Source: Astropecten irregularis (taxonomy: Eukaryota; Echinodermata; Asteroidea; Paxillosida; Astropectinidae). From it: a stretch of DNA of 64,000 bases. The stretch covers positions 3,658,001-3,722,000 of the forward strand of contig OZ020255.1 in the NCBI GenBank assembly GCA_963971285.1, given 5' to 3'. The translations under genes and the position numbers were made by a program. Positions within the stretch are counted from its first letter, which is position 1, and each line of letters begins with the position of its first letter. This document shows positions 11,101-64,000 of the stretch, piece after piece. The notes beneath the pieces were generated by a model. It did not search any database and was not told the origin of the DNA. It saw nothing but the letters and a program-made list of their open reading frames with translations.

Positions 11101-14100
11101 TTGTTTTGCCGGTCGGCAATATGATTTTTCATCTTGAATGCTGGTCGGAAAGGCTGAGTGCCGGATGTCCCCGACCGGTGCTGACCAGCGTGGCTAGAAC
11201 ACTGCCTATACACGAAATAGAACGCCCTATTAAACAAATCCTGAATGCACAAAAATGAAAAAGAATGTGATAATGAGGAAAAAGAAAGCAGAGTTTGCAC
11301 AGAGTTGAAAAATCTGTCGGAATCTGAATGCGTTTTAATGAAAAATGAACGTTCTTTTGCTGAAATTGGCCGGGAAAACCAATAATATGAAATTGATGAC
11401 TTTATGATGATGTTATTGCAGCACTTTTCAATGATTTCAATGAAATCATGTGTAGGGTTTACTAGAATGTACTCCATCATGTCACAAGATGATGTAATGA
11501 TGATTTTAAAAAACCCTTCGAGTTTACTTAAAGTGCTAAGATTAAAAAATGTGTACAGTAGTTGGGTCTGTCCAGACTAATGTATACATTTGATAACTTC
11601 TGGTGTGTAACGGGGGAAGTGGCTTTAAAATCAGGTTTTTATGCTAAATTTTGTTTCCTAAACATTCCTGTATTCATTCGTAGTTAAACTGAAAAATGAA
11701 TATAGGCTGATTCACTGGATAAGTAGGAAATTATAAGGTCATCTTTAAGATGAAATTAATGATAAAGTTTGTCATAAGGACAGACATTCTTGTATAGTGC
11801 AAGTATATTCTTGTCATAATTCAATGCAGACTTGTTACATTATATTACTTTAGTGAAGTGCAAATTTCATCACTAAAAATTAAAGCAACCTATTTGTTAT
11901 TTATGAAATTAGGATGAGTCTTGAATACTGTTCCAATACTTGTCCCAAAATGTCTGTCCCCGTAATAAACGTGAAATCTTGAAGATGTAGACACTGTATT
12001 CAAAAATACCTCGAAATAATAAACTACATGTACACCTAATTGACCAGTAGTCATCTCAGAATGGACAGCTTTGCATAAGGAACAAAATTTGGGATAATAA
12101 ATTATTTTCATTACTAATTTCCAGCATTTAATTATGAAATGTCTGTCCATGTTACAAATGTTACATCTTAAAGATGATCCTCTGTTATATCTTGAGTGCT
12201 TCGAAATCTATCAAACGTTTTGGCTGGCCAAGTTCTTACAAGTATATAGGTTGTAGTTAAAGAGAAAACATGGCAAATTACTTGCTGTTCCAACTCCTGT
12301 GCTTGGTTCCCTCCAAAAGTCACACAAATGTATGCATTAGTGTGGACAGACCCAGAATGTGTTTATGTAAATGCTGTTAATATGCAAATTAGGCTTGCCC
12401 TTCACCGACGTGGATGAGCACTGTATACTCAGTGCTTGTGAGAGCACGTGAGAAAAAATCACATGCTTGCTCAGGTGGGATTCGAACCCACGACCTCCTG
12501 CTTACTAGTGCAGATGCCTTACCTGCTAGGCCACCGAGCTACATGTAGCTGGGGTCTGCAGGGTGAATCAAATCCAATTTGCGTATTATCTATTTCCCGA
12601 CCAAAATCATTTAATATTCATAAATGCTGTTACATATGAATCTGTATTGTTCCTATTCATTATTTTAAAAACCCTTTATTAGATATTGATGTAATAATAG
12701 ATATTGATGGATTGGACATGCTTCTTAAATTCATAACGTTCATTCATAACGTGTACATCAAGCACATACATGTATACATAGGAACACTGCGGTGTGCTTT
12801 TTAATTGATTGAAATAATAGTTATCGTTGAAAGATAACGTAACAGTCATGCAGAATGGTTATCAACACACAATTATAAATGTAATTTGTATACAGACACA
12901 ATATAAAGATGCCCAACAAATCTTCAGCATGATAAACCCAGATTAACTTTTTTTTCTGCTTCTTTCAGGATCCCCTGTATGGATATTTTCAAGCAGTCGC
13001 AGGACAGGTGAGTTGTCCATTTACAACAGATTTTGTATTACTATACCTCATAAATATTCATGACCCATTTATAGCTGAATCCCAATTGGTCAAATCTTCA
13101 TCACATGCCAGAAGATATATTTGCTGGTCATCAGCCAATTGTAACTTACCAGTAGACATGAGCCAGATATTCATTCATTTATTCAAGTAATTTATTATAC
13201 TTACAAACCTGCAATACACTATTACAACAACATGTACATGTAGTAATGAATGGATTTGGAAGAAACTGATGTGAACCTTTTGTGTGATTTAACAGGACGG
13301 GCAGATTGAACCAATTGAATTACAGCAATGTCTTACATCATCAGGCATAGCAGGATCATACCAACGTAGGTCTTTCATTCTTTACAATGGCAGACTTTTG
13401 AGAACCGGTCTTCAAGTCAACAGTGCACGTGCACGTAATTGTGAGCATGCGCGCATTGTTTTTCGCGTGCGCTGTTTGTTGACTTGAAGACCGGTTCTCA
13501 AAAGTCTCCCATTCACTTAATTTATTAGTTCTGTAGCGAAAATTGGTTCTTGTTTACCTTTTTATAATCCATGCTTGCGTCTGCAGCTACGAGCTCCTGC
13601 GTGCGCATGGCTTCTAAATTGCGTCATCAAGTTGGCTATTTTTATCCTATAATTGGGCGCCTTTGCCACACGCCCGCGGCAGTGTATGTGTGTGTGTGTA
13701 GCATTATTTGTGCGCTTTTGGGCTTGTTATAAGTGGTTGCATATTAGCTTCCAATTGGGGGCTCAGGGATTTCTCTTTACACAAAATGTAGACCACGTTG
13801 GGCGCTTTTCACGCCCAAAGTTGTAGCGCAAAATTTAATGGTTGCTACGAACGCGCTAAGTAAACTTTTTCTCTCACTTGTCAAGTTGCTGCCAATCACG
13901 AGAGTTGTGCGCATGCTGTGCGGCGTTATTGTAAGGACAGTCTTTGTTCATCAATAATGGTAGACTAAATTCAAGCAGTCATTTCTTGGATGCTAGACGA
14001 ATTATGGTAAGCTTGTATTTGTCATTATAATCTTTCTGTGAATATTTGGCGAATATTTGGAATTGTTTTAAGAGAGTGAATTGTCACGATTTGTGTCACT

Positions 14101-25771: not shown

Positions 25772-26972
25772 TGGCTTTTCCGTGATAGCGGAAAAGCCTT
25801 TGTTTTTGTTCTGATTTTTTTTTTTTTTCTTCTTCTTCTTCTTCTTCTTGTCGAAAAAACCCATAGCCTCAGCACAGGGGTTTTATACGCCCCACTTTTG
25901 GCAGTTTTAAAGTTTTAATCTTAACTAAACTTGGTCCAAACAAAGTCCCTATAGAGTAGATGTGCCACGAAGATTTACGTCATCATGACGTCATCAGGTG
26001 TCAAATTACAAGCAATTTGAATAAAATTATCAAAATCTTTAAAAATCAACAAAAAATCAACCGTTTGAGATATTAGGTTCATTCTTTTACCAAATATCAT
26101 TGTTAGGCTAGGTCTTTCTTTGTGACACATTGCTTGACCTCTGTGACCTCTACTTCCGGTCAAACAGGAAGTAGCTCCTCATTTAAAAGTGGTAAGAGCT
26201 AGGATCATGATTCTTTCACCAAATATCAATGTTAGGGAGGGTCTTTCTTTTTGACACAATATTTGACCTCTGTGACCTCTACTTCCGGTCAAACAGGAAG
26301 TGGCTCCTCATTTGAAAGTGGTAAGAGCTATGATCATGATTCTTTCACCAAATATCAATGTTAGGGAGGGTCTTTCTTTTTGACACATTGCTTGACCTCT
26401 GTGACCTCTACTTCCGGTCAAAAAGGAAGTAGCTCCTCATTTAAATGTGGTAAGAGCTAGGATTATGATTCTTTCACCAAAAGTGAATGTTAGGCAAGGT
26501 CTTTCATTGTGACATAGTGCTTGACCTCTGTGACCTCTACTTCCGGTCAAACAGGAAGTGGCTCCTCATTTGAAAGTGGTAAGAGCTAGGATCATGATTC
26601 TTTCACCAAAAGTGAATGTTAGGCAAGGTCTTTCATTGTGACACATTGCTTGACCTCTGTGACCTCAACTTCCGGTCAAACAGACAGTAGCTCCTCATTT
26701 AAAAGTGGTAAGAGCTAGGATCATGATTCTTTTACCAAATATCAATGTTAGGCTAGGTCCTTCTTTGTGACATAGTACTTGACCTCTGTGACTTCAACTT
26801 CCGGTCAAACAGGAAGTAGCTCCTCATTTAAAAGTGGTATCTGAGATAGGATCATGATTCTTTTGCCAAATATCAATGTTTGGGAAGGTCTTTCTTGGTG
26901 ACACAATTCTCCAATTTATATCATATGCGGAAAAGCCTTATGTGCTGTTTGCAAAACAGCCATAACCTCTAG
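25772..26972 (+). mobile_element. Helentron-like non-autonomous element (HINE), family A, full length
   Basis: In order: head hairpin GGCTTTTCCG/CGGAAAAGCC, a T run and (CTT)n tract, a block with paired TACGTCA/TGACGTCA sites, six core units of 129 bp starting at 26135, 26264, 26393, 26522, 26651 and 26780, then CGGAAAAGCC (inverted copy of the head), a hairpin GCTGTTTGCAAAACAGC and terminal CTAG followed by T. Subterminal inverted repeats, a microsatellite tract, a tandem-repeat core and a 3' hairpin just before CTAG are the described layout of Helentron-associated elements such as Drosophila DINE-1. No Rep/helicase is encoded, so it would depend on an autonomous partner. It lies between the two candidate last exons of sorcin. 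Confidence 0.75.
26135..26930 (+). repeat. Six-copy 129-bp tandem core of the family-A element
   Basis: Each unit holds TGACCTCTGTGACCTCTACT (or a close variant), then TCCGGTCAAACAGGAAGT, AGCTCCTCATTT, GGTAAGAGCTAGGATCATGA and an ATATCAATGTTAGG-type stretch. Spacing between unit starts is 129 bp throughout. Confidence 0.9.
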
Positions 26973-27726
26973 TTTCTTCTTCTTCTTCTTCTTGTCGAAA
27001 AAACCCATAGCCTCAGCACAGGGGTTTTATACGCCCCACTTTTGGCAGTTTTAAAGTTTCAATCTTAACTAAACTTAGTCCAAACAAAATCCCTATAGAG
27101 TAGATGTGCCGCGAAGATTTACGTCATCATGACGTCATCAGGTGTCAAATTACAAGCAATTTGAATAAAATTATCAAAATCTTTAAAAATCAACAAAAAA
27201 AAACCGTTTGAGATATTAAGTTCATTCTTTTACCAAATATCAATGTTAGGCTAGGTCTTTCTTTGTGACAGATTGCTTGACCTCTGTGACCTCTACTTCC
27301 GGTCAAACAGGAAGTAGCTCCTCATTTAAAAGTGGTAAGAGCTAGGATCATGATTCTTTCACCAAATATCAATGTTAGGGAGGGTCTTTCTTTTTGACAC
27401 AATATTTGACCTCTGTGACCTCTACTTCCGGTCAAACAGGAAGTGGCTCCTCATTTGGAAGTGGTAAGAGCTATGATCATGATTCTTTCACCAAATATCA
27501 ATGTTAGGCTAGGTCCTTCTTTGTGACATAGTGCTTGACCTCTGTGACTTCAACTTCCGGTCAAACAGGAAGTAGCTCCTCATTTAAAAGTGGTAAGAGA
27601 TAGGATCATGATTCTTTTGCCAAATATCAATGTTTGGGAAGGTCTTTCTTGTTGACACAATTCTCCAATTTATATCATATGCGGAAAAGCCTTATGTGCT
27701 GTTTGCAAAACAGCCATAACCTCTAG
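26973..27726 (+). mobile_element. Second family-A element, headless, three core units
   Basis: This directly follows the CTAG of the previous element. It starts with the (CTT)n tract and repeats the rest of the family-A sequence, but with core units only at 27278, 27407 and 27536, and ends with the same hairpin and CTAG (27723-27726). The head hairpin is absent. Confidence 0.75.
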
Positions 27727-50100: not shown

Positions 50101-53100
50101 GTGGTCACCATGCACATGATCGGATATGTGGCTAAACTGCAGCATGGGTTTCGTTCATGCAATGCTTCCGCTGATTGGTCACCGTTACGAAGTGCAGACA
50201 TAGCGCAAAATGATTGGCTACATGGAGGGGAGGGAAAAAAAGACAGATGTTGGGCTGCTAAAAAAAACCTGACATCTTAAAAAAATAATCTGTGTCAAAA
50301 AAAACCAAACATTACGAACGCACTTATTAATTTAAGTTAAAAAAGGCGCCCTCTCGTGTCCATGAAAATATCGCCGGCTCCCTGCGGTGCACATTGCTTC
50401 ATACTGCACACATTGTTTGGCAACCAACTTGTCTGAACGTGCGGTGCTAACGTTCGTCGCTGTCATCCACTCGCAATGTTCATGTCGTTTTCGTGCCGTC
50501 ATTATTTTTCTTTACTTGGTTTTTATTATTCTTACATATTGTAATGAAATCCCTTTTACATCCGTGACAATTCAACAAAATGAAATTTATCAAGCAAATT
50601 TATTAAGTATAAATTACTTCTAAAATGTAAACACGGACTTGACACGTAATTATGGGTTACCAGAGGGATAGTGCATGCTGTAATGTGCCGTGTACCGCAC
50701 ACACGTGCATTTCGGTTGACAAAATATGGATCCTGCATAATACGAGGCCCCGCCCCGGCGACCTCGTATTAACGAGGTTCGACTGTATATATATTTATAA
50801 TTACTTCTGCAAGCCAAAATACCTACAGCCAAAATTCTGTCAAAACAATTGTTTCCTGAACAATAAAGCCCAGTCTAAAATAGTTTTTTCCACATCAGTC
50901 AGTTGTGTATTTTGCATCATTGAGATTCAGCTTCCCTACTCTCTCTCATTGTGAATGAATAAGTCACCAGCGGCATCAGGACTGCTGTGATGTGATCATA
51001 ACATAAGCTGCGTTCATAGCAAGGATGTCAATGGCATTATATAACCAGGCATGCAATTTTTTCACAGATCTGCAGATTTCCACATTTCCTTAAAATCAGG
51101 CCACAAAAAGGTCATCATTTTCTTGTTTGTTCTGCCCTGCCACTGTGGCGCCTCGTGGATTGTGCGGAACCTTGCGCTTATTTATAAGATTGCTGCACCT
51201 GCTTGTATAGTATAATAAAGGATATCGTCTGGCTCTGTGGTTTGTGTACATTTATATGAGGCTAAATGGTGCAGGAAACAGACCCTTCTTATATTCTGTT
51301 CCATATATTTATGTCGCATTAACGAATACATTGGGTTATAGGTACTAAACCGCTTTCCGACTAGATTTACAAAGAAAAATTGACTTTGAGTGATCCCCCA
51401 TGTACCGTTCCTGGGTGGCAGCATTGTTGCGTGTATCATTGAAACGATCCCTGGGGTGTAGCGGTGTGTGCGTGGTTTCATGGCTTCTGACTGCCAAACG
51501 AACAAAGATAGTTGACTATTGGGGTCACCACCAACATAGGGCTGGATGGCTCAGTTGGTAGAGCGCCTGTACGGTGTTCAGGAGGTCGCCGGTTCGAATC
51601 CCGCTCCAGTCAATTTTTCTTTGTTCACTTTTCAATGACTTTAAACTCAGTCAGTTTCCCTTGTGGTTATTTCACGAATAGATTTACATTGTTAAAAACA
51701 TTTGGCATGGATCAGGCCTCGAATTTAACGGCTGTAGTGCCCTCAAGATCAGATATTTATTACGGCCACTACTGGCCAATGTGCCCTTCTTATATGCGCT
51801 GAGCAGTAAGTACAGAAAATTCTCACTGAGTCCATGCGAAAACATATCCAAAACATTGAGCAAATAGTGGTAACCTACCTCGCAACATTATTTTATAGCA
51901 TGTAATGCATCGTGAATAGAAAGCATGGTGCCCTGCGCTTTTGTTCTTATAACCTGCCTTGGGGAGTTAGGGTACATGTCTTGAGTTGAGCAGATAGCAT
52001 GGCGCTGCTGTGCTAATGTTATTATAAAATGACTAGCAACAGTCTCTCGTGAAAAGCAGAAGTTGTTTTTCGGTGAGCATGTGATGGACCAGAAAATTGT
52101 AAACTTGCCCACTCAATTTTCATTATATGCCCTGTGCCTGGTAAAAGTCTAATGGCATTTTCACAAACGAAAAATTGTCAACGCTGTCAATTTCATACAA
52201 AAACTGTGCTCATTAAAAAAATATATAATTAGGGCCTACTGTCTCATGGAAACTAGGAAATTCATACAATTTTAAAAATTATTAAAATTTGAAATACTGA
52301 AATATTAAAAAAGCCCAATAGGCCTATTCCATAAAAAGAACAAGTAAAGAAAACACCCTAGTTACATGTAACTTAAGATCCTTAAAAAATTGCATTTTTT
52401 TGACATGGCTCCAATGCCCTGACATGCCTTTTTACTTTTGCACATGGTGCCCTTTCCACTGGCCTTGGTGCCCTAATGTTTAAAAATTCTAGAAGGTCAA
52501 AGTGGTAGTGCCCTAAAAATTCCCAAATTCAAGGCCTGCATGGATGTGTTAACACGTTTAGGAGCGTGACCATAAAAAATCTAATGGTCTACACAAAAGT
52601 GTTGCATGGTTTCCAGGGGAATTACCCATGTTCATTGTATGATATTATATGAGTCCAGACATATGATTTGCCTTCTTAATAATGTCATTGACATTAGGAA
52701 TGAAAAGTGAATAGTCTATCAAAATACCTTTACTCTTACACTTACTCTACTTAAAATGTTATTATCAAGGGCCTATATGATAGCCATACTGGCCTCCAAC
52801 AGGAGGAGAACAACATGTCGTTGACCATCGCATTGATTTCTTGAAGAGCAATGCGCCATCCATGGAGTTTTTTCTTCGAGGAAAACCTCGTCAAGGATTA
52901 AGAGGAGGCAGAGAAGACAGGAAACTTGCTTCAATGTTCACTAATACCTCGGTCACATTTGCTATACGGCTAGAGTACGGCGGCTGTTTGTACCCAAAAT
53001 CGAGAGAAACTCAGGGTTGCCTTACGGCACATCCCTATTTTTTAAAGACCATAGGGGTGGCCGTAGAGTTATAGCGCGGAGTTATATCTCTTTTAATTTA

Positions 53101-56100: not shown

Positions 56101-59100
56101 CCGCACTAGCTCTCGTGATACTTTGACAACAACCTCCAAGGAGATAGAAAGAGATGGGGTGAGGTTTCCCAGTAATTTGGACACCCAGCATTCAGTAAAT
56201 ACTGTTTTGATGCAGCAAGCGGGAAAACTTCGAGCCAAGGAACTTAGGGAAGGTAAAAGTCTTCTTGCTTCTTACTTACATGACATTTGTTTCATGAGAG
56301 TATTGTTGTCACAATCAAAACTTTACTCTTGACATAGCCAAGACAGCAAAGAATTAAAAAAATTATCGTAAAGTTTGTTCTTGTTCTATCATCAAAAATT
56401 TTTAATATCCTCTAACAAAGTAACCCTTTGGTATAATATTGGTAATCTTGTGGAAATTGTAATGTGTGTGCCTTCAAACTGGGAAAATGTATACCATTGC
56501 TGGGACAACGTGTCAGACAGTGTTCTAAAATATGACATACATATTACATATGTATGTCATATTTTATAATACTTTTTGAAATTTGCACTTCTTGATACCA
56601 GAGTCAGTTTGTGTTCTGTATATGTTGGGGGCATTTCATGTCAAGCCACCTAAATTTGCAACATATGTCTCAGGTTTGGTTGAATAAAGTTGAAAACGGC
56701 TTAAACCTACAAGATACGGGGGGCAGCTTCTGAACATCCCCCTCCACCTTTTTTTTCTATCAAATGTATAATGAATCTAGGAGTTTCACAGTACATGGTT
56801 GCCTGAGGCAAGGTGTGGCTTAATTAAACGTTCACTGACTTATAGCATAAACCCCTAGACGTACATAATGTATATATTATGTCTTGAATTTCAGGTCCGT
56901 TACGCCTAAGGTTTTGCAACTTAGTTAAAAAAACAGAAATTATTTATATATATATACAGTCGAACCTCGTTAATACGAGGTCGCCGGGACTTACCGAAAA
57001 TGCTCGTATTAAGCGGGGCCTCGTATTATGCGGGATACATATTTTGTCAACCAAAATGCACGTGTGTGCAGTACACTGCACATACAGCATGCACTATCCC
57101 TCCGGTAACCCATAATTACGTGTCAAGTCCGTGTTTACATTTTAGAAGTACTTAATAAATGTGCTTGATAAATTTCATTTTGTTGAATTGTCACGGTTGT
57201 AAAAGGGATTTCATTACAATATGTAAGAATAATAAAAACCAAGTAAATAAAAATATTGCAACACGAAAACGACATGAAAATTGCGAGTGGATGACAGCGA
57301 CGAACGTTAGCACCGCACGTACAGACAAGTTGGTTGCCAAACAATGTGTGCAGTATGAAGCAATGTGCACCGCAGGGAACCAGTGATATTTTGATGGACA
57401 CGAGAGGGCGCCATTTAAACTTAAATTAATAAGTGCGTTCGTGGTTTTTGGGGGGTTTTTTTGACACGGATTATTTTTTTTAAGATGTCGGGTTTTTTAG
57501 CAGTCCAACATCTGTCTTTTTTCCCTCCCCTTCATGTAGCCAATCACAAAATTTGCGCTATGTCGGCACTTCGTAACGGTGACCAATGCGGAAGCATTGC
57601 ATGAACGAAACCCATGCTGCAGTTTAGCCACATTATATCCGATCACGTGCATGGTGACCACGTGTAGCTGTAACATCGGCCGATCGGTCGGGCCGCAGTC
57701 GGATCGTATCGGTCCGTTCATGGAATATTATTTTGTTCGGATACATGTTGGCTACACTTTGAAGAATTTGTTGTGACCAAAGTCCTTCTTACACGTCATC
57801 AGCAAGGTAAAATTGTCTGGAAATTAGCGTGGACTTTGTTTGATTTTTGATAAAAAAATGAAGAAGTTTTTTTCCTTACGAAAACGAATCGACAAAATGG
57901 AAGACCTCGCCGTTTTCCTCGGGCGGGTTTTGACTTTCGTGACAGCCAAAAAAGCCACGTGGATCACGCTCAATAAAAGAAAATACTATTGGCCGTACGT
58001 TGTCTGTTTTTCGTTTACACTTTCCACTGGTAAAACCGCAGGAGGGGATTAGTGGGCATTAGCGCTGCGGTGAATTTAGCTTTCGGTAACATGAAACAAC
58101 GGCGACTTGATGGTGGTGGGATTTTTCTTAATCTGTACAAAGAAATCCGAAAATCGATTCTAAAAGAAGCCAGATTAAAAAATCCTCGTATTAAATGGGT
58201 TGTTTACAATGACTTCCACGCAACTGGGTCAGCCCAAAACGCTCGTATTAAAAGGTTTTTCGTATTATCAGTGCTCGTATTAAGCAAATATTTCCCCATA
58301 GAAACGTGCACAACTCGGTCGGGACCGGCGTGATATGCTCGTCTTAACCGAGATCTCGTCTTAAGAGAGCTCGTATTAATGAGGTTCGACTGTATACAGA
58401 TTTGTACTTTGTGCCTAAATGACTAGATGATAAGTGATAACACTCCATCAGTCATAGTTTTGTATAGAGGTCATTACTACTTTGGCAGTATACCGAAACA
58501 GAAATCTTCCCAGATTTACCTATATCTTACAGGGTATAAAGATGGTGATGGTAGAAACATACCGTTAACATTGTTCTGCCTGAAATGCTGTATTTATCCT
58601 GAAAAGAGTAAAACCAGTGACCAATTTTTTTTTTTAACTTTGAAAAATATTTGAAAAATCAAAAATAAAAGAGGAAAGACTTAAGAAATACTGTGGCTGT
58701 TTTTCCCTGTTTTCTCAAAAATTGGGCAACGTATGGGACTGAAATTTTCACAGATGACTGTTACTGTATCTTTGATATTTTTGCCCATGAATCTGTATTT
58801 CTTTGACAAAAACCAAAGTATGATGTTACCTTTAAAGTTACTATCATACTTCGGTAGCATATCTAAACAGAAATCTTCACAGATTTTCCTATAACTGACA
58901 GGGTTTAAAGATGGTGATGGTAAAAACATCTGAAAATCTGAAACACTGTATTTATCCAGAAAAGAGTAAAATCAATTCACCACAAACAATTTTGATCTTC
59001 GGAAGATCAAAAATCCTGTGAAATGATTTTAGAATACCTTTGGTGTTTTTCACTGTTTTCTCAAAAAGTGGGCACAGTATGGGACTGCAAATTTCACAGA

Positions 59101-60518
59101 TGACTATTCATAATGCTCATAATGAATCATTGAATACATTTCTTTGTCAAAACCAATGTATGAAATTACCTTTAAGTCTTTACAAACTCCAGACTGCACA
59201 TGTTGACATGTGTAAGCTGGTCATAACATTGGCAAAAAACCATGGTTTTACATGTACATAATGTATGTGATCTCTAAAAAATGTTCCTGAAAAGCCATCA
59301 GAAACTTAAAACAGCATCAAATACACTGCTTGTCCACGCCTCACAGTCAGTTTAGCCAGCATGAAGCTTTCACCACAGTATTTGCGCATGAACTGATGAA
59401 AGAGCCACGATTTTGTGGCATGCAGCAAAAGCAACCAGCGGAGTAAATTCCTAATCATGCTCAGGTGTTGGCACTAGGCATCGTAGATGATAAATTCATG
59501 TTGCAGAGACAAATTTTGTTTCAGTTGTAAGACTACAATCTACATTTTCAATATTTAAACTCAGCATTAAGATTTTATTGATAATTGAACAAAGAAAAAT
59601 TGACTGGAGCGGGATTTGAACCGGCGACCTCCTGAATACCGTACAGGCACTCTACCAACTGAGCTAGTAACCAGCCCTATATTTGTGGTATCCCAAATAG
59701 TCAATTATCATTGTTCGTTTGGCAGTCAGAAGCCATGAAACCATTCATGATGAGACATCATTAATCGATACTCACAGCAACGTGGCAACCTGAGAAACAG
59801 TACATGGGGGATCACTCAAAGAGAATGCGACTTTTTAATCAATATAATCATAAAAAAAACCACAAGGGAAACTAACTGAATTTCAGTCAGTTTCCCTTGT
59901 GGTTATTTTATGATTAAATTATAGATACAGAACATACATTTTCCATATATAAATCCTTTGTCATAAGAAAGTATAGGTCTTTAAAAAAATATTAGGGTTA
60001 GGGTTGATAAAGTGTAGGTTTAAACCATTTTGGATAATATCTCACAGACCAAAGTTTAGAAATATTTTAGCCTCCTTTCAGTTATTTTGGAGAAACACCT
60101 AATATTATAAATGAATTGCATCAAGCCATACAAATACCATGTAGTACCCTATATTGAGCAACTTTGATAATGTTTTTGGATTGTATACTTACTTTTTTTT
60201 CAGCGGTTCTGGCAAAGCAAGATGCTGTTCCAAACACAAGACAATTGAAGGTGAGATTCATGTTCTGTCTAGGAATAACTGACTAAAAATTCTTCTTTTG
60301 TTGAAGAAAACAATATCATCAAGGTAGACATTAAATGTGAGAAGAAACCCAGCTTTTGAACTGCATTGTATTTACGTGCACTGGTATGTATGATAAAACA
60401 GAATATTAATCTTGACTGTACTTAATTAATTAGTGTTTTTTTTATGTTGGCAGGAAGCACTCTTTGATCATGACGTTAAGCAAGATGTGCTTGCTGAGAG
60501 AAGAAACCAGCTCAGATG
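43974..60518 (+). CDS. CFAP221: CFAP221 (PCDP1), cilia and flagella associated protein 221, 5' part
   Basis: Visible coding exons are 43974-44133, 45217-45317, 48857-49039, 54687-54787, 55106-55366, 55981-56252, 60204-60250 and 60454-60518. They join in phase for 396 codons plus 2 nt and the gene runs off the window; human CFAP221 is about 840 residues. Landmarks: VPNHLLDT (about 46-53), LFHKVSHNSVVQAEPVEVHF (55-74), an Ig-like/ASH-type stretch with [20 protein letters not shown] and DCVRIHC, LLVPVHAYPAL, VIPLRCNAPVDFE, ISGIVPANGEVNISVTFAP, TSQFNSKP, VRFPSNLDTQHSVNTVL, GKLRAKELRE and EALFDHDVKQDVLAERR. All have close counterparts in vertebrate CFAP221 in the same order. The protein belongs to the C1d projection of the ciliary central pair; its algal homologue FAP221 binds calmodulin and affects waveform and beat. 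Regulation is not visible. Confidence 0.93.
44538..44814. mobile_element. MITE with GGGGTGCGTTCCA ends
   Basis: The left end GGGGTGCGTTCCACT and right end GCGGAATGCACCCC are inverted repeats with one mismatch over the core. The interior has several GTTCGCG and GCGCAC words and no gene. It lies in the first CFAP221 intron and abuts the next element. Confidence 0.6.
44816..44964. mobile_element. 149-bp hairpin MITE with 65-bp arms
   Basis: Arms 44816-44880 and 44900-44964 (GGGGCCGATTTCACTAACGC...) are almost exact reverse complements around a 19-bp loop. The GGGGCCGATTTCAC terminus type is common to MITEs of many animals. It begins one base after the preceding MITE. Confidence 0.85.
45217..45317 (+). 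CDS. CFAP221: CFAP221 coding exon 2
   Basis: It encodes (Q)LFHKVSHNSVVQAEPVEV then HFTGFEPGKVHKQTL. The acceptor is TGTTGCAG, the donor GTAAGT, entering phase 2 and leaving phase 0. It corresponds to the start of the Ig-like region. Confidence 0.93.
46261..46340 (+). repeat. 16-bp tandem repeat, five copies, CGAGTTNG core
   Basis: CGAGTT starts units at 46261, 46277, 46293 and 46309, with TGAGTT at 46325; unit type CGAGTTNGTCTGCGTA. Unit length and core match the minus-strand units of the TU-like element (CGAGTTGGTCACGGAC). Confidence 0.85.
46611..47000. mobile_element. TTAA-flanked MITE carrying a 68-bp local insertion
   Basis: The family sequence runs from CAGATTCATGGGCAAAAATA through the central palindrome to CCAAAGTATGATGCTACCT and TTAA (47001-47004). 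The left terminus is missing. Between 46821 and 46888 it is interrupted by a copy of the sequence at 46335-46402. Confidence 0.7.
46821..46888 (+). repeat. 68-bp duplicate of 46335-46402 inside a MITE
   Basis: AGCATTTGAAATCCACTAGC ... GATGAATTTTGTG matches 46335-46402 with a single T/C difference. The MITE family sequence is contiguous on either side (CCATTTCAG, then CGGAAAAATGTTAACGG). Confidence 0.85.
47754..48161 (-). other. 135-codon minus-strand open frame of unknown nature
   Basis: It contains an acidic Ser/Asp-rich stretch (YPSDSNDHSGSDSDSF) preceded by SDRPWEEYSIDEE and followed by a His/Thr/Ser-rich tail. No known domain is recognised. It lies inside a CFAP221 intron on the opposite strand, so it is probably a transposon-derived or chance frame rather than a host gene. 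Confidence 0.2.
48857..49039 (+). CDS. CFAP221: CFAP221 coding exon 3
   Basis: It encodes [40 protein letters not shown] and [20 protein letters not shown], closing with Q. Human CFAP221 has [16 protein letters not shown] at the same place. The exon is 61 codons, phase 0 at both ends, with acceptor TTTCAG and donor GTAAGC. Confidence 0.97.
49370..50785. mobile_element. pogo/Tigger-like non-autonomous element, copy 1
   Basis: The ends CAGTCGAACCTCATTAATACG and CGTATTAACGAGGTTCGACTG are inverted and flanked by TA (49368-49369, 50786-50787). The subterminal region repeats TTAATACGAG / TTAAGACGAG words. Length is 1,416 bp, without a recognisable transposase. It is collinear with the copy at 56957-58392 in the opposite orientation. 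Confidence 0.85.
51370..51680 (+). mobile_element. tRNA-derived SINE, plus strand
   Basis: The tRNA-like part (51,540-51,612) has GCTCAGTTGGTAGAGC (D arm and A box), an anticodon stem CCTG/CAGG with loop ACGGTGT (GGT anticodon position), and GGTTCGAATCC (B box). The acceptor ends do not pair. Upstream GAGTGATCCCCCATGTAC... and downstream AATTTTTCTTTGTTCA, then CAGTTTCCCTTGTGGTTATT, recur in the 59.6-kb copy, so the repeat unit is larger than the tRNA part. Confidence 0.7.
52947..53548. mobile_element. 602-bp MITE with CCTCGGTCACATTTG ends
   Basis: The left end CCTCGGTCACATTTG and right end CAAATGTGACCTAGG are inverted repeats with one mismatch. The interior is rich in CGGCGGC/GCCGCCG words in inverted arrangement. 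It lies immediately before the DIRS-like remnant and may have inserted in it. Confidence 0.55.
53549..54640 (+). pseudogene. Degenerate DIRS-like retroelement (RT to RNase H)
   Basis: Frame-broken segments read FQFARLPFGLLSAARTFSNV near 54,045, LGRLSSTIEAVLPAPLFYHS near 54,413 and TFTIQTDALLQGWSKCLG near 54,490. F--LPFGLSSAPR-FT, LLGR--S...AVLPAPL and I-TDAS--GWG are the DIRS/Ngaro-type reverse transcriptase and RNase H landmarks. Several stops and frameshifts are present. No tyrosine recombinase was seen. It ends about 50 bp before CFAP221 exon 4. Confidence 0.7.
54687..54787 (+). CDS. CFAP221: CFAP221 coding exon 4
   Basis: It encodes DEDNLLVPVHAYPALSTTEF and PEVLKFPPVPISE. The acceptor is TTTTGATAG and the donor GTAAGT; it leaves in phase 2, completing N182 with the next exon. 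LLVPIHAYPV is the human counterpart. Confidence 0.93.
55106..55366 (+). CDS. CFAP221: CFAP221 coding exon 5
   Basis: It encodes CTKVIPLRCNAPVDFEYQLT, then FLQPHPTFTVQPISGIVPAN, GEVNISVTFAP and LTTSQFNSKPLVCLVSGSSS, ending PGLA. The donor is GTTAGT at GCA GA, the only nearby site whose phase fits exon 6. Reading on without splicing gives a stop after 14 more codons. Confidence 0.92.
55601..55835. repeat. 235-bp near-complete hairpin in CFAP221 intron 5
   Basis: The outer arms 55601-55659 and 55776-55835 pair (TAGACTTGCAGAGACACCAT... with its complement), and pairing continues inward (GAATAAATTCTCGACGTTTC with GAAACATCGAAAATTTACTC, and TACTCGTCCTC with GAGGACGACTG). Almost the whole element folds back on itself with mismatches. 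Confidence 0.8.
55981..56252 (+). CDS. CFAP221: CFAP221 coding exon 6
   Basis: It contains AEMAGRCNGHSSRPDDSMLD, a basic stretch ARRKKRTKSRNRTSSRD, then DGVRFPSNLDTQHSVNTVLM and QQAGKLRAKELRE. The second half matches human LRFPVDLSNPFAVATVLN...GKLKIKELRE; the basic Ser-rich first half is poorly conserved. The acceptor is TTTCGCTAG (atypical but in phase) and the donor GTAAAA. Confidence 0.9.
56957..58392. mobile_element. pogo/Tigger-like non-autonomous element, copy 2, inverted
   Basis: The ends CAGTCGAACCTCGTTAATACG and CGTATTAATGAGGTTCGACTG are flanked by TA (56955-56956, 58393-58394). Throughout its 1,436 bp it matches the reverse complement of 49370-50785 with scattered differences. No transposase is recognisable. 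Confidence 0.85.
58468..58831. mobile_element. TTAA-flanked MITE, first of two abutting copies
   Basis: The family interior is complete in order; the left end is worn (AGGTCATTACTACTTTGG) and the right end CCAAAGTATGATGTTACCT is followed by TTAA (58832-58835). Confidence 0.7.
58836..59171. mobile_element. TTAA-flanked MITE, second abutting copy
   Basis: It starts AGTTACTATCATACTTCGG right after the shared TTAA and ends CCAATGTATGAAATTACCT then TTAA (59172-59175). The centre is TTTTGATCTTCGGAAGATCA, an altered version of the family palindrome. Confidence 0.7.
59585..59920 (-). mobile_element. tRNA-derived SINE, minus strand
   Basis: The reverse complement has TAGCTCAGTTGGTAGAGTGC, CCTGTACGGTATTCAGG and GGTTCAAATCC with the same flanks as the 51.4-kb copy. 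At 59,862-59,915 the tail sequence AACCACAAGGGAAACT occurs in both orientations, forming a small hairpin. Confidence 0.7.
60204..60250 (+). CDS. CFAP221: CFAP221 coding exon 7
   Basis: It encodes (A)VLAKQDAVPNTRQLK, counterpart of the human ...LDQGTEISKTRQMK segment. The acceptor is TTTTTTTCAG and the donor GTGAGA. It leaves in phase 0. Confidence 0.88.
60454..60518 (+). CDS. CFAP221: CFAP221 coding exon 8, last in window
   Basis: It encodes EALFDHDVKQDVLAERRNQL then R and the first two bases of W, as in human EALFEQKVRQDI...NHLKW. The donor is GTAACA in phase 2. No later exon was found up to 64,000, so the rest of the gene lies beyond. Confidence 0.9.
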
Positions 60519-61487: not shown

Positions 61488-61539
61488 GGCTTTTCCGTGT
61501 TCAACGGAAAAGGTATTGTTTTTGTTCTGATTTTTTTTT
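61488..61539 (+). mobile_element. Family-A Helentron-like head, body absent
   Basis: GGCTTTTCCGTGTTCAACGG and AAAAGG form the family-A head hairpin, then TATTGTTTTTGTTCTGA and a T run as at 25,772-25,820. The sequence then switches to a family-B head. Confidence 0.75.
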
Positions 61540-62686
61540 AGGTGTTTGGGTTCAAGCCGAACACCTATTGTTATTGTTCGAGTTTTTTTTAGGTGTTCGG
61601 GTTCAAGCCGAACACCTATTGTTATTGTTCCAGTTTAATTTTTTAGGTGTTCGGGTTCAAACCGAACACCTATTGTTATTGTTCGAGTTTTTTTTTTTTT
61701 TTTTTTTTTTTTCATTTTTCTTCTTCCCAAACTTGTCAGCACGACTTCTATATGACAGTTACAAGATATTGACTTGAAACTTGGTGGGAACTTCGGTCAT
61801 GTTGTCAAGTTGTATTTAGAAGATTGACGTCATGATGACGTCACCGGGTATCAAATTACACCCGTTTTTAGGAAAAACTTTGGTGCTTTATAACTTGAGA
61901 ACCACATGACCTATGATTTTGATATTGACATATGTTACTCAACACATGAATGTCAACAATTATTATATTCAGTGTTGTGTACAAATGACCTTCACTTCCG
62001 GTGTTACCGGAAGTTGAAGTTTGACTCAAAATAACTCTAAAACGGAAGGATTTGGGCACATAAAATGTATTTAGCTTAAAGATAGAGAAGGTCTTGCGCT
62101 TTCATAAAATATAAACGATGACGTCATACGGGCTGTATAGCGCCCTCTATGGTGGATTAAAGATATACAGTGATTACGTAATCCAAAAGTAAACAACGGA
62201 TATACGCCAAATTTGGTGAGTGTGAAGAACCAATGCACCTTGACATATGTGTGAAGTTTGAAATCTGTGACGTCATTTAACCGGAAGTTATGCATTTTTA
62301 AAGGAAACATGATGTAATTATTCAAATACTGTTTATTCGGTAATTACATGACGTACATCGGTGCAAATTGCAAATTTTTAACATGGTACGCATTTGATGA
62401 TTTCTGCAAATTTATTTTCAGTTGTTTGTGGTTAACTATAAACCGGAAGTTATCGTCCGGGCAATTTTACGTTATTTAAAGGTGACACCATTCCCTATAC
62501 GCTATCAGTCGGTTTACATATAATACGAATACACTGAACTCAGCATGATCAGTATTTGCTCAGTCACACAGTTTAAGTGTATTTATATATGCCACACATG
62601 CGTTCCAACAGACATTCTCATAACAGTTCCAGTACGAAATGAGACCCCGAACACCTAGTGGTTGTTCCCACAACCACAATGTCTAG
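61540..62686 (+). mobile_element. Three family-B heads followed by a full family-B Helentron-like element
   Basis: AGGTGTTYGGGTTCAARCCG plus AACACCT heads start at 61540, 61591 and 61645, each followed by TATTGTTATTGTTC and a T run. Only the third runs on into a body: long T run, TTCCCAAACTTGTCAGCA, a paired TGACGTCA block, ETS-type repeats (CACTTCCGGTGTTACCGGAA), then CCCGAACACCTAGTGG, a hairpin GTGGTTGTTCCCACAACCAC and CTAG (62683-62686) followed by T. CGAACACCT is the inverted copy of the head. The layout matches non-autonomous Helentrons. Confidence 0.75.
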
Positions 62687-63658
62687 TTTTAATTTTTTTT
62701 TTTTTTTTCTTCCCAAACTTGTCAGCAGGACTTCTTGGTGACAGGTACAAGATATTGAGTTGAAACTTGGTGGGAACTTTGGTCATGATGTCAAGTTGTA
62801 TTTAGAAGATTGACGTCATGATGACGTCATCGGGTATCAAATTACACGTGTTTTTAGGAAAAAATTTTGTGCTTTATAACTTGAGAACCACATGACCTAC
62901 GATTTTGATATTGACATATGTTACCCAACACAAGAATCTCAACAATTAATGTATGCAGTATTGTGTACAAATGACCTTCACTTCCGGTGTTACCGGAAGT
63001 TGAAGTTTCACTCAAAATAACTCAAAAACGGAATGATTTGGGCACATAAAACCGAGAGGGCTAAAAGATAGAGAAGTGCTTGGGCTTTCAGAAAATATAA
63101 ACGATGACGTCATACGGGCTGTATAGCGCCCTCTACGGTGGCTTAAAGATATACAGTGATTACGTAATCCGAAAGTAAACAACAGATTTCCGCCAAATTT
63201 GATGAGTGTAAAGCACTAGTGCACCTTGACATGTTTGTGAAGTTTGAAATTAGTAACGTCATTCAACCGGAAGTTATGCGTTCTTAAAGGGAAAATGATG
63301 TAATTATTCAAATACTGTTTACTCGTTAAGTACATGACGTACATCAGTGAAAATTGCAAAATATTTACATCGTACGCATTGAATAATTTCTGCAAATTTT
63401 CAGTTGTTTGTGATTACCTAACCGGAAGTTATCGTCCAGGCAAATATTACATATTTAAAGGTGACTCCATTTTCTATGTATACGCTATTTGTCAGTGTAT
63501 GAATACGGCAATCAGCATGATCAGTATCACGCAATATATTTACGCAGTATTTCAATATGCCATTGATTACATACGTTCCAACAAACATTCACATAATAGT
63601 TCCACTACGAAATGAAACCCCGAACACCTAGTGGTTGTTAACACAACCACATGTCTAG
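62687..63658 (+). mobile_element. Second family-B body, headless
   Basis: This is a 972-bp sequence collinear with the first body, starting in a T run and ending with CGAACACCTAGTGG, the hairpin GTGGTTGTTAACACAACCAC and CTAG (63655-63658). No head precedes it. Confidence 0.8.
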
Positions 63659-64000
63659 TTTTTTTTTTTTTTCTCCTTCAACCCAAACTTGTCAGCAGGA
63701 CTTCTTGGTGACAGGTGCAAGATATTGAGTTGAAACTTAGTGGGAACTTTGGTCATGATGTCAAGTTGTATTTAGAAGATTGACGTCATGATGACGTCAT
63801 CGACGTCATGATGACGTCATCGGGTATCAAATTACACGCGTTTTTAGGAAAAACTTTGGTGCTTTATAACTTGAGAACCACATGACCTACGATTTTGATA
63901 TTGACATATGTTACTCACCACATGATTTTGAATAATTAATATATTCAATGTTGTGTAAAAATGACCTTCACTTCCGGTGTTACCGGAAGTTGAACTTTGA
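63659..64000 (+). mobile_element. Third family-B body, headless, cut by the window end
   Basis: It starts in a T run directly after the previous CTAG and follows the family-B body to the CACTTCCGGTGTTACCGGAA block. The paired TGACGTCA site is duplicated here (63,781-63,820). Confidence 0.8.

Follow-up and report, generated by a model that had tools for sequence, protein, structure and literature searches.

Nested arrays of Helentron-type elements in Astropecten irregularis are consistent with serial insertion into a T-rich linker behind the resident 5' head

Towards the right end of a 64,000-nt stretch of DNA, hereafter the window (C19:3658001-3722000, in a 475.7-Mb genome of 168 contigs), hairpin-bearing 5' heads of repeated elements stand next to each other and are followed by a series of bodies, raising the question of how heads can accumulate on one side of an array and bodies on the other. 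The initial annotation listed one family-A head, three family-B heads and then three family-B bodies, each closed by a hairpin and a CTAG that abuts a T run; re-reading the coordinates confirmed this order, and such an end was recovered at every B body. Here and below, A and D are labels coined in this analysis for subfamilies. The features are as follows:

61488..61530, + strand: family-A 5' head, the outermost element; palindromic subTIR GGCTTTTCCG..CGGAAAAGG + TATTGTTTTTGTTCTGA; DNA hairpin z -5.4
61531..61539, + strand: left remnant of the A linker (T9), read as severed by the first B insertion
61540..61582, + strand: family-B 5' head 1, the outermost B; single substitution (GTTTGG); predicted partner is body 3
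61583..61590, + strand: left remnant of B linker 1 (T8)
61591..61633, + strand: family-B 5' head 2; predicted partner is body 2
61634..61644, + strand: left remnant of B linker 2 (TTTAATTTTTT)
61645..61687, + strand: family-B 5' head 3, the innermost
61688..61725, + strand: intact linker of the innermost B element, the landing pad; T run, then CATTTTTCTTCTT
61726..62686, + strand: family-B body 1, 961 bp; 3' subTIR, hairpin (z -4.2), CTAG
62687..62711, + strand: right remnant of an outer B linker, 25 nt
62712..63658, + strand: family-B body 2, 947 bp
63659..63681, + strand: right remnant of the outermost B linker, 23 nt
63682..64000, + strand: family-B body 3, running off the window at 64000 and ending at 64648 (L009:3648 in the downstream locus L009), with an A body then extending to 65677

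The heads share a layout of hairpin, TATTGTT(A/T)TTGTTC and T run, and all B bodies of the array end in CCGAACACCTAG, a hairpin and CTAG, directly followed by a T run. Across the window, the B 3' subTIR has 10 matches against 2.4 expected (12-mer, at most 2 mismatches), 8 of which fall in the array, and the 5' end has 4 against 2.8 expected (15-mer, at most 3 mismatches), this short motif alone not being significant. Single-strand DNA folding of two heads and two tails returned z values of -3.1 to -5.6.

The elements are of the Helentron type (HINE). Helentrons and HINEs have subTIRs of 11 bp or more that do not vary within a family, one close to the 5' end and the other some tens of bp short of the 3' end; here, family B has 12-bp subTIRs, TAGGTGTTCGGG at its 5' end (as seen in heads 2 and 3) and, approximately 40 bp from the 3' end, the complement CCCGAACACCTA, and family A has 11-bp subTIRs, GGCTTTTCCGT and, in the L009 A tail, the complement of it. 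The 3'-end palindrome of this class is likewise present, as an 8-bp stem in the B tail (z -4.2) and in the A tail (z -3.1). Canonical Helitrons (Helitron1), which have a 5'-TC end and A/T insertion, do not fit, the heads starting with AGG or GGC after T's. The 3' end of a canonical Helitron is CTRR, and the tails here end in CTAG before T's; the CTAG agrees with CTRR, whereas neither the 5' end nor the target is of the canonical kind.

The sequence beyond the window had been forecast to hold a family-A body with a (CTT)n tract and 129-bp units behind the third B tail. Indeed, past 64,000 there is neither unrelated sequence nor a fourth B body: the B tail at 64648 is directly followed by TTTCTTCTTC... 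/ TTTCTTCTTCTTC..., and then by a family-A body with the (CTT)n tract and 129-bp units, closed by an A tail (CGGAAAAGCC, hairpin, CTCTAG) that ends at L009:4677, window position 65677. The forecast erred on how this body begins, which is with GTCGTTTGAGTTACC and not with GTCGAAAAAACCC. The observed start suits nesting better than the predicted one, since the outer head is of subfamily A (CGGAAAAGGTATTG), since GTCGTTTGAG bodies adjoin the innermost A heads in two other loci (L031 and L032), and since GTCGAAAAAACCC belongs behind a different, D-type head at 25773. The full array thereby reads A( B( B( B( B) B) B) A).

Other repeats are found nearby. At 56956-58396 lies an inverted-end repeat (AGTCGAACCTCGTTAATACGAG ... 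CTCGTATTAATGAGGTTCGACT) that looks like a cut-and-paste DNA transposon and may be pogo/Tigger-like. A tRNA-like repeated stretch (GGATTTGAACC...) is present at 59600-59680 and again at L009:5300-5380; ARAGORN, run on the window, did not call the copy at 59600-59680, its only calls there being a tRNA-Thr (51540-51612) and an odd one (12465-12541).

We consider it very probable that arrays of this kind form by serial insertion of non-autonomous Helentrons (HINE type) into the T-rich linker behind a resident head, in line with the initial proposal of insertion into the T run behind the head. The element would comprise a 5' hairpin head, a T-rich linker of about 33 nt, and a body with 3' subTIR, hairpin and CTAG end. 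A newcomer would enter the linker directly behind the resident head and split the resident, such that the head and the left part of the linker remain on the left, and the right part and the body come to lie behind the tail of the newcomer; repeated rounds would then yield last-in-first-out stacks, with heads and bodies paired like brackets. Mobilization would presumably be executed by the Rep/helicase of an autonomous Helentron via a rolling-circle intermediate, and the T strand may fix the orientation (our search patterns covered same-strand stacks). Surplus heads would presumably derive from multi-headed units that move as one. Four observations made here support this reading: a bracket order that holds across families, linkers that are split, near-equal counts of the two junctions that an insertion creates, and neighboring bodies that look independent.

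The bracket order was read in mixed-family arrays. The nine listed here (heads / tails) are all mirrored, and none among those read has its bodies in head order; L009, L012-, L020+, L024+ and L027+ were drawn from 20 loci resembling the B element of the window, a sample biased by its query (the head stack of the window and its first body), L029 came from the list of A-then-B stacks, and L031, L032 and L036/L035 were fetched after a mirrored junction was known nearby, and are as such not independent of the positional test below:

L009: A BBB / BBB A
L012-: D BBBB / B D; 5 heads against 2 tails, four B heads and one B tail lying within the D element
L020+: D A BB / B A D; outer D and A heads degraded (4 mismatches each), B heads about 600 bp behind, outside the linker
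L024+: BB DD / DD, followed by the start of a B body
L027+: BB A / A BB
L029+: A B / B B, followed by a body of A type, the tail of which falls beyond the locus
L031+: BBB AA / A B, continuing; truncated where the locus ends
L032+: BB A / A B
L036/L035: BB AA / ...A, followed by a B body; linked through position alone

Head and tail numbers differ in L012, L020, L029, L031 and L032, and one further locus, L030, is degraded beyond reading. Genome-wide, a B head precedes a GGCTTTT (A) head at 33 places, a TTGTTTTTGTTC head precedes a B head at 6, and A-tail/B-body junctions number 31, with no match for the reversed-pattern control of any of the three. The mirrored A-tail/B-body junction occurs on the same strand within 10 kb downstream of 10 of the 33 B-then-A stacks (9 distinct junctions, two stacks sharing one), and within 45 kb of 13, a limit chosen after one case at 41.6 kb was known, leaving 20 of 33 without an exact one; upstream or on the other strand it was found for none of the 33. 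A same-order B-tail/A-body junction within 45 kb was likewise found for none, a null weakened by this pattern having just 18 distinct places and 2 control matches. The same pattern, with the same restriction, was not detected within 45 kb of any of the 6 A-then-B stacks, despite which L029 and L012- hold, by reading, an A- or D-type body at the corresponding point.

This order bears on the alternative that arrays are rolling-circle concatemers, in which a terminator that is skipped or missing lets a single event produce several bodies, or several 5' pieces, in tandem. There are precedents, as tandem Helitron arrays in bat and silkworm have been put down to terminator bypass (PMC4067079), and plant arrays with multiple 5' ends and a single 3' end are explained by terminator-less circle replication (PMC12628747 on Xiong et al.). 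Concatemers can however not place the body of another family behind a stack in reverse order.

The linkers were then compared as whole and divided sequences. Intact B linkers measure 24-47 nt, with a median of 33 (n=32), and consist of a T run and, after it, a signature that contains C. Left remnants, from head to head, have a median of 10.5 nt (n=44; one further run of the 45, in L023, was excluded as an overlap artefact), and right remnants, from tail to body, one of 23 nt (n=47). The two medians sum to 33.5 against 33 nt in the intact form, the samples being unpaired. Moreover, a C is present in the last 6 nt of 32/32 intact linkers and 47/47 right remnants, as opposed to 4/44 left remnants. 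Lengths and C position are what a single linker cut in two yields, and concatemers cannot split linkers. Helentrons and HINEs insert between T's and leave the target site unmodified. Here, all 47 right remnants start with TT and 42/44 left remnants end with it; considering that the medians sum to the intact length there is no long target duplication, and a 2-nt TT duplication is compatible with the data. One right remnant in L011 starts with TTGTTCGAG, as if the newcomer had landed at a TT within the resident head.

Junction counts allow a further comparison. Insertion into a head/body linker creates one head/head and one tail/body junction, tying the two counts, and insertion between X and Y in other runs (giving X/head and tail/Y) leaves the tie unchanged and generates tail/head junctions; concatemers would raise tail/body alone, and head duplication head/head alone. 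Genome-wide, the exact family-B patterns match 262 head/head, 237 tail/body, 108 tail/head and 268 head/body junctions, with 0 for each reversed-pattern control, and the near-equality of the first two is what insertion requires. These figures are approximate, since the exact patterns caught 25 of 42 relaxed head/head junctions (one an artefact) and 33 of 45 tail/body junctions in 24 loci, such that the true ratio is perhaps nearer 1.3. For context, exact 33-base B heads number 865 in the genome, and the pattern of two heads in a row, of any of these families, has 862 matches (470 + 392) against 189 for the reversed pattern, both including some TTGTTG microsatellites. The 69 B stacks, merged from 100 head/head places among the matches listed, have an exact tail/body junction within 10 kb downstream in 39 cases, upstream in 10 and on the other strand in 0.

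The same counts address unequal exchange or slippage between T runs, through which heads and bodies would be duplicated locally. The T runs are indeed long and mutually alike, linker lengths vary, and certain arrays look as if copied by segment, for example C1:13726070-13737713, where the junction spacing repeats (3919, 2827, 3919). However, exchange would leave head/head and tail/body numbers untied, in contrast to the 262 and 237 seen, and it provides no explanation of mixed-family nesting. The idea that a circle integrates through homologous crossover in the linker was dropped by reasoning, as this would produce head-body-tail-head-body-tail and no stacked heads. Large B arrays, at C9:4670347-4702712 (about 32 kb) and C10:5757079-5778905 (about 22 kb), show head/head, tail/head and tail/body junctions interleaved. 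Tail/head runs are exactly TT between CTAG and the next head in 20 of 100 such junctions among the matches listed, as judged by eye, most others being longer; the TT class may represent circle joints, in favor of concatemers, or direct abutment.

We also assessed how neighboring bodies are related. In an alignment of 60 B bodies, leaving out 13 of 73 B tails without a recognized B body start, adjacent pairs are 0.905 identical on average (27 pairs) compared to 0.898 between loci (1686 pairs), and only two of the 27 adjacent pairs are mutually closest (in L011, 0.989 identical, and L021, 0.972). Judged by their sequences, neighboring bodies thus look like independent arrivals, and the L011 and L021 bodies could be local duplicates. 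Concatemers would in contrast yield neighbors that are alike, which 25/27 pairs are not in terms of being mutually closest, and unequal exchange is equally at odds with adjacent bodies being no more similar than those of different loci. The D-type element at 25773-27726 is a different case, with a single head and two bodies, which hold 6.4 and 3.4 of the 129-bp units and agree at 95% over 685 bp, as expected for a concatemer; nesting alone does not explain it, and an outer head may have been lost or a terminator bypassed. Overall, concatemers are contradicted for the main arrays and highly improbable as their origin, and could account for a minority with near-identical neighbors or surplus heads, and unequal exchange we regard as more improbable still. 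Both had been put forward as alternatives in the initial annotation, and are disfavored by the order, junction, linker and similarity tests alike. The comparison of body divergence suggested there did not uncover an age gradient within arrays: using the best identity to a body at another locus as a proxy for age, the first body has a nearer relative elsewhere than the last in 8 of 17 runs, the reverse holds in 8 and one is a tie. In the absence of a gradient by divergence, the chronology rests on nesting.

Serial insertion into the linker predicts as many heads as tails, and the equal number that had been pointed out for family B holds at this locus (3 and 3), but not as a strict rule. Among 15 arrays, namely the clusters ending more than 1 kb inside their locus together with L009, the left end of which is visible in the window, head and tail numbers are equal in 9 (two of which are single elements) and one apart in 4; the difference is two in L028, where two further tails follow at a distance of 4.8 kb, and three in L012-. 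An artefactual row in L024, in which an A tail overlaps a D head, was excluded beforehand. Equality in only 9/15 suggests that a second process also operates, for instance transposition of units with several heads, or the loss of parts. The surplus of heads may be real, and would in that case agree with some transposition of multi-headed units. Self-insertion composites with several heads could jump whole, from the outer head to the first tail, so that part of the stacks would be copied rather than built in place, as proposed for Fusarium (PMC5148889). The four B heads and single B tail inside the D element of L012- agree with such jumping, as do the excess of heads over tails in L013, L031 and L032 (L031 being cut by the locus end) and the head surplus that the sensitivity-corrected counts hint at. 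Jumping of composites adds heads and not bodies, however, and can alone generate neither the mirrored body series nor the 237 tail/body junctions. We give such copying of part of the stacks a rather low probability as a contributor.

Is the linker a preferred target? The 61 kb of the window outside the array contain 45 T/A runs of at least 8 (extrapolating to about 348,000 genome-wide) and 2 of at least 15 (about 15,000). If 865 B heads went into such runs at random, with half as many B linkers on offer on average, some 1 to 24 B-in-B insertions would be expected as opposed to the 262 seen, an excess of about 11 to 245 fold that builds on a very small sample of runs and to which local hopping could add. 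An insertion is present behind 52% of B heads (262 + 33 of 262 + 33 + 268, the right neighbor being a B head, a GGCTTTT head or a CCCAAACTTGTC body), which is an upper figure as other body types are uncounted. It is possible, and we suggest it tentatively, that the head-proximal linker is a specific landing pad recognized by the transposase and not just any T run, the resident hairpin recruiting the Rep complex of the incoming copy. If so, the family would steer into its own copies, a host-sparing choice of target, leaving behind a stratified record of its insertions in bracket order, and the linker would represent a natural self-targeting site of a eukaryotic rolling-circle transposon, making target choice testable.

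Autonomous partners of Helentrons and HINEs encode Rep/helicase (and endonuclease) and have ends in common with them, and candidate machinery is present in the same genome. Helitron_like_N has 149 genome matches, many within open frames exceeding 3,000 aa, and no match in 14 well-known control genomes. On C15, two matches (+) lie between the BB AA stack of L036 and the A tail before a B body of L035, both on the - strand and 41.6 kb apart, and on C8, one match (+) falls within the approximately 20 kb that separate three B heads (L034) from B bodies (L033). The C8 interval also encloses a complete small B head/body (C8:20910806), and the Rep frame is consequently not tied to the B ends. Autonomous elements probably nest likewise, with Rep antisense, an arrangement also described for one Drosophila Helentron (PMC4067079).

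Serial insertion into the linker converts the old puzzle of Helitrons with many 5' ends into a countable process, the signature of which is mirrored order, tied junction counts and linker sums. Arrays formed in this manner reveal the relative order of insertion; they also represent one route from dispersed elements to satellite-like arrays.

Comparison with known systems places these elements close to the HINE/DINE-1 type, which according to the sections available (PMC4067079) shares 5' palindromic subTIRs, a 3' subTIR followed by a palindrome, T-rich insertion with flanking T's, internal tandem repeats and Rep/helicase partners, and the clusters of which are credited to terminator bypass or close-by insertion. 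Unlike this type, a T-rich linker of about 33 nt directly follows the 5' hairpin here, and about half of the B heads with one of three recognized kinds of right neighbor have another head there. Cg_HINE of the Pacific oyster (PMC7492417) is similar in its left module (subTIR, inverted repeat and microsatellite), central tandem repeats, right module (subTIR and palindrome) and T-rich targets; stacked left modules are not mentioned in the accessible portion of that report and the word 'nested' is absent from its main text, and oyster loci called 'shuffled', where one element sits inside another, have been described in a later review (PMC12628747). Tandem Helitrons of plant centromeres (Xiong et al. 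2016, via PMC12628747) share several 5' ends, and transposon dimers in Drosophila (McGurk and Barbash, via PMC12628747) share a tandem build-up by repeated insertion at a preferred site. As summarized there, the plant arrays have a single 3' end and are ascribed to replication, whereas heads and bodies are both multiplied here, mirrored and with neighbors that are unalike. In the literature searched, which covered papers outside subscription, we found no report of ordered stacks of this kind. The closest parallel is FoHeli of Fusarium oxysporum (PMC5148889), with multiple 5' termini ascribed to self-insertion and composite movement; a triple in Metarhizium is explained in the same paper by insertion into the 5' end twice or by rolling-circle replication. 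That self-insertion yields multiple 5' ends has hence already been proposed in Fusarium (PMC5148889), from few cases and, in the parts of the account at hand, without an order test or a T-run landing pad, in contrast to the hundreds of junctions, mixed-family bracket order and linker bookkeeping presented here. The present analysis goes further in a built-in T-rich landing pad, in its heavy occupancy and scale, and in a bracket order tested across families.
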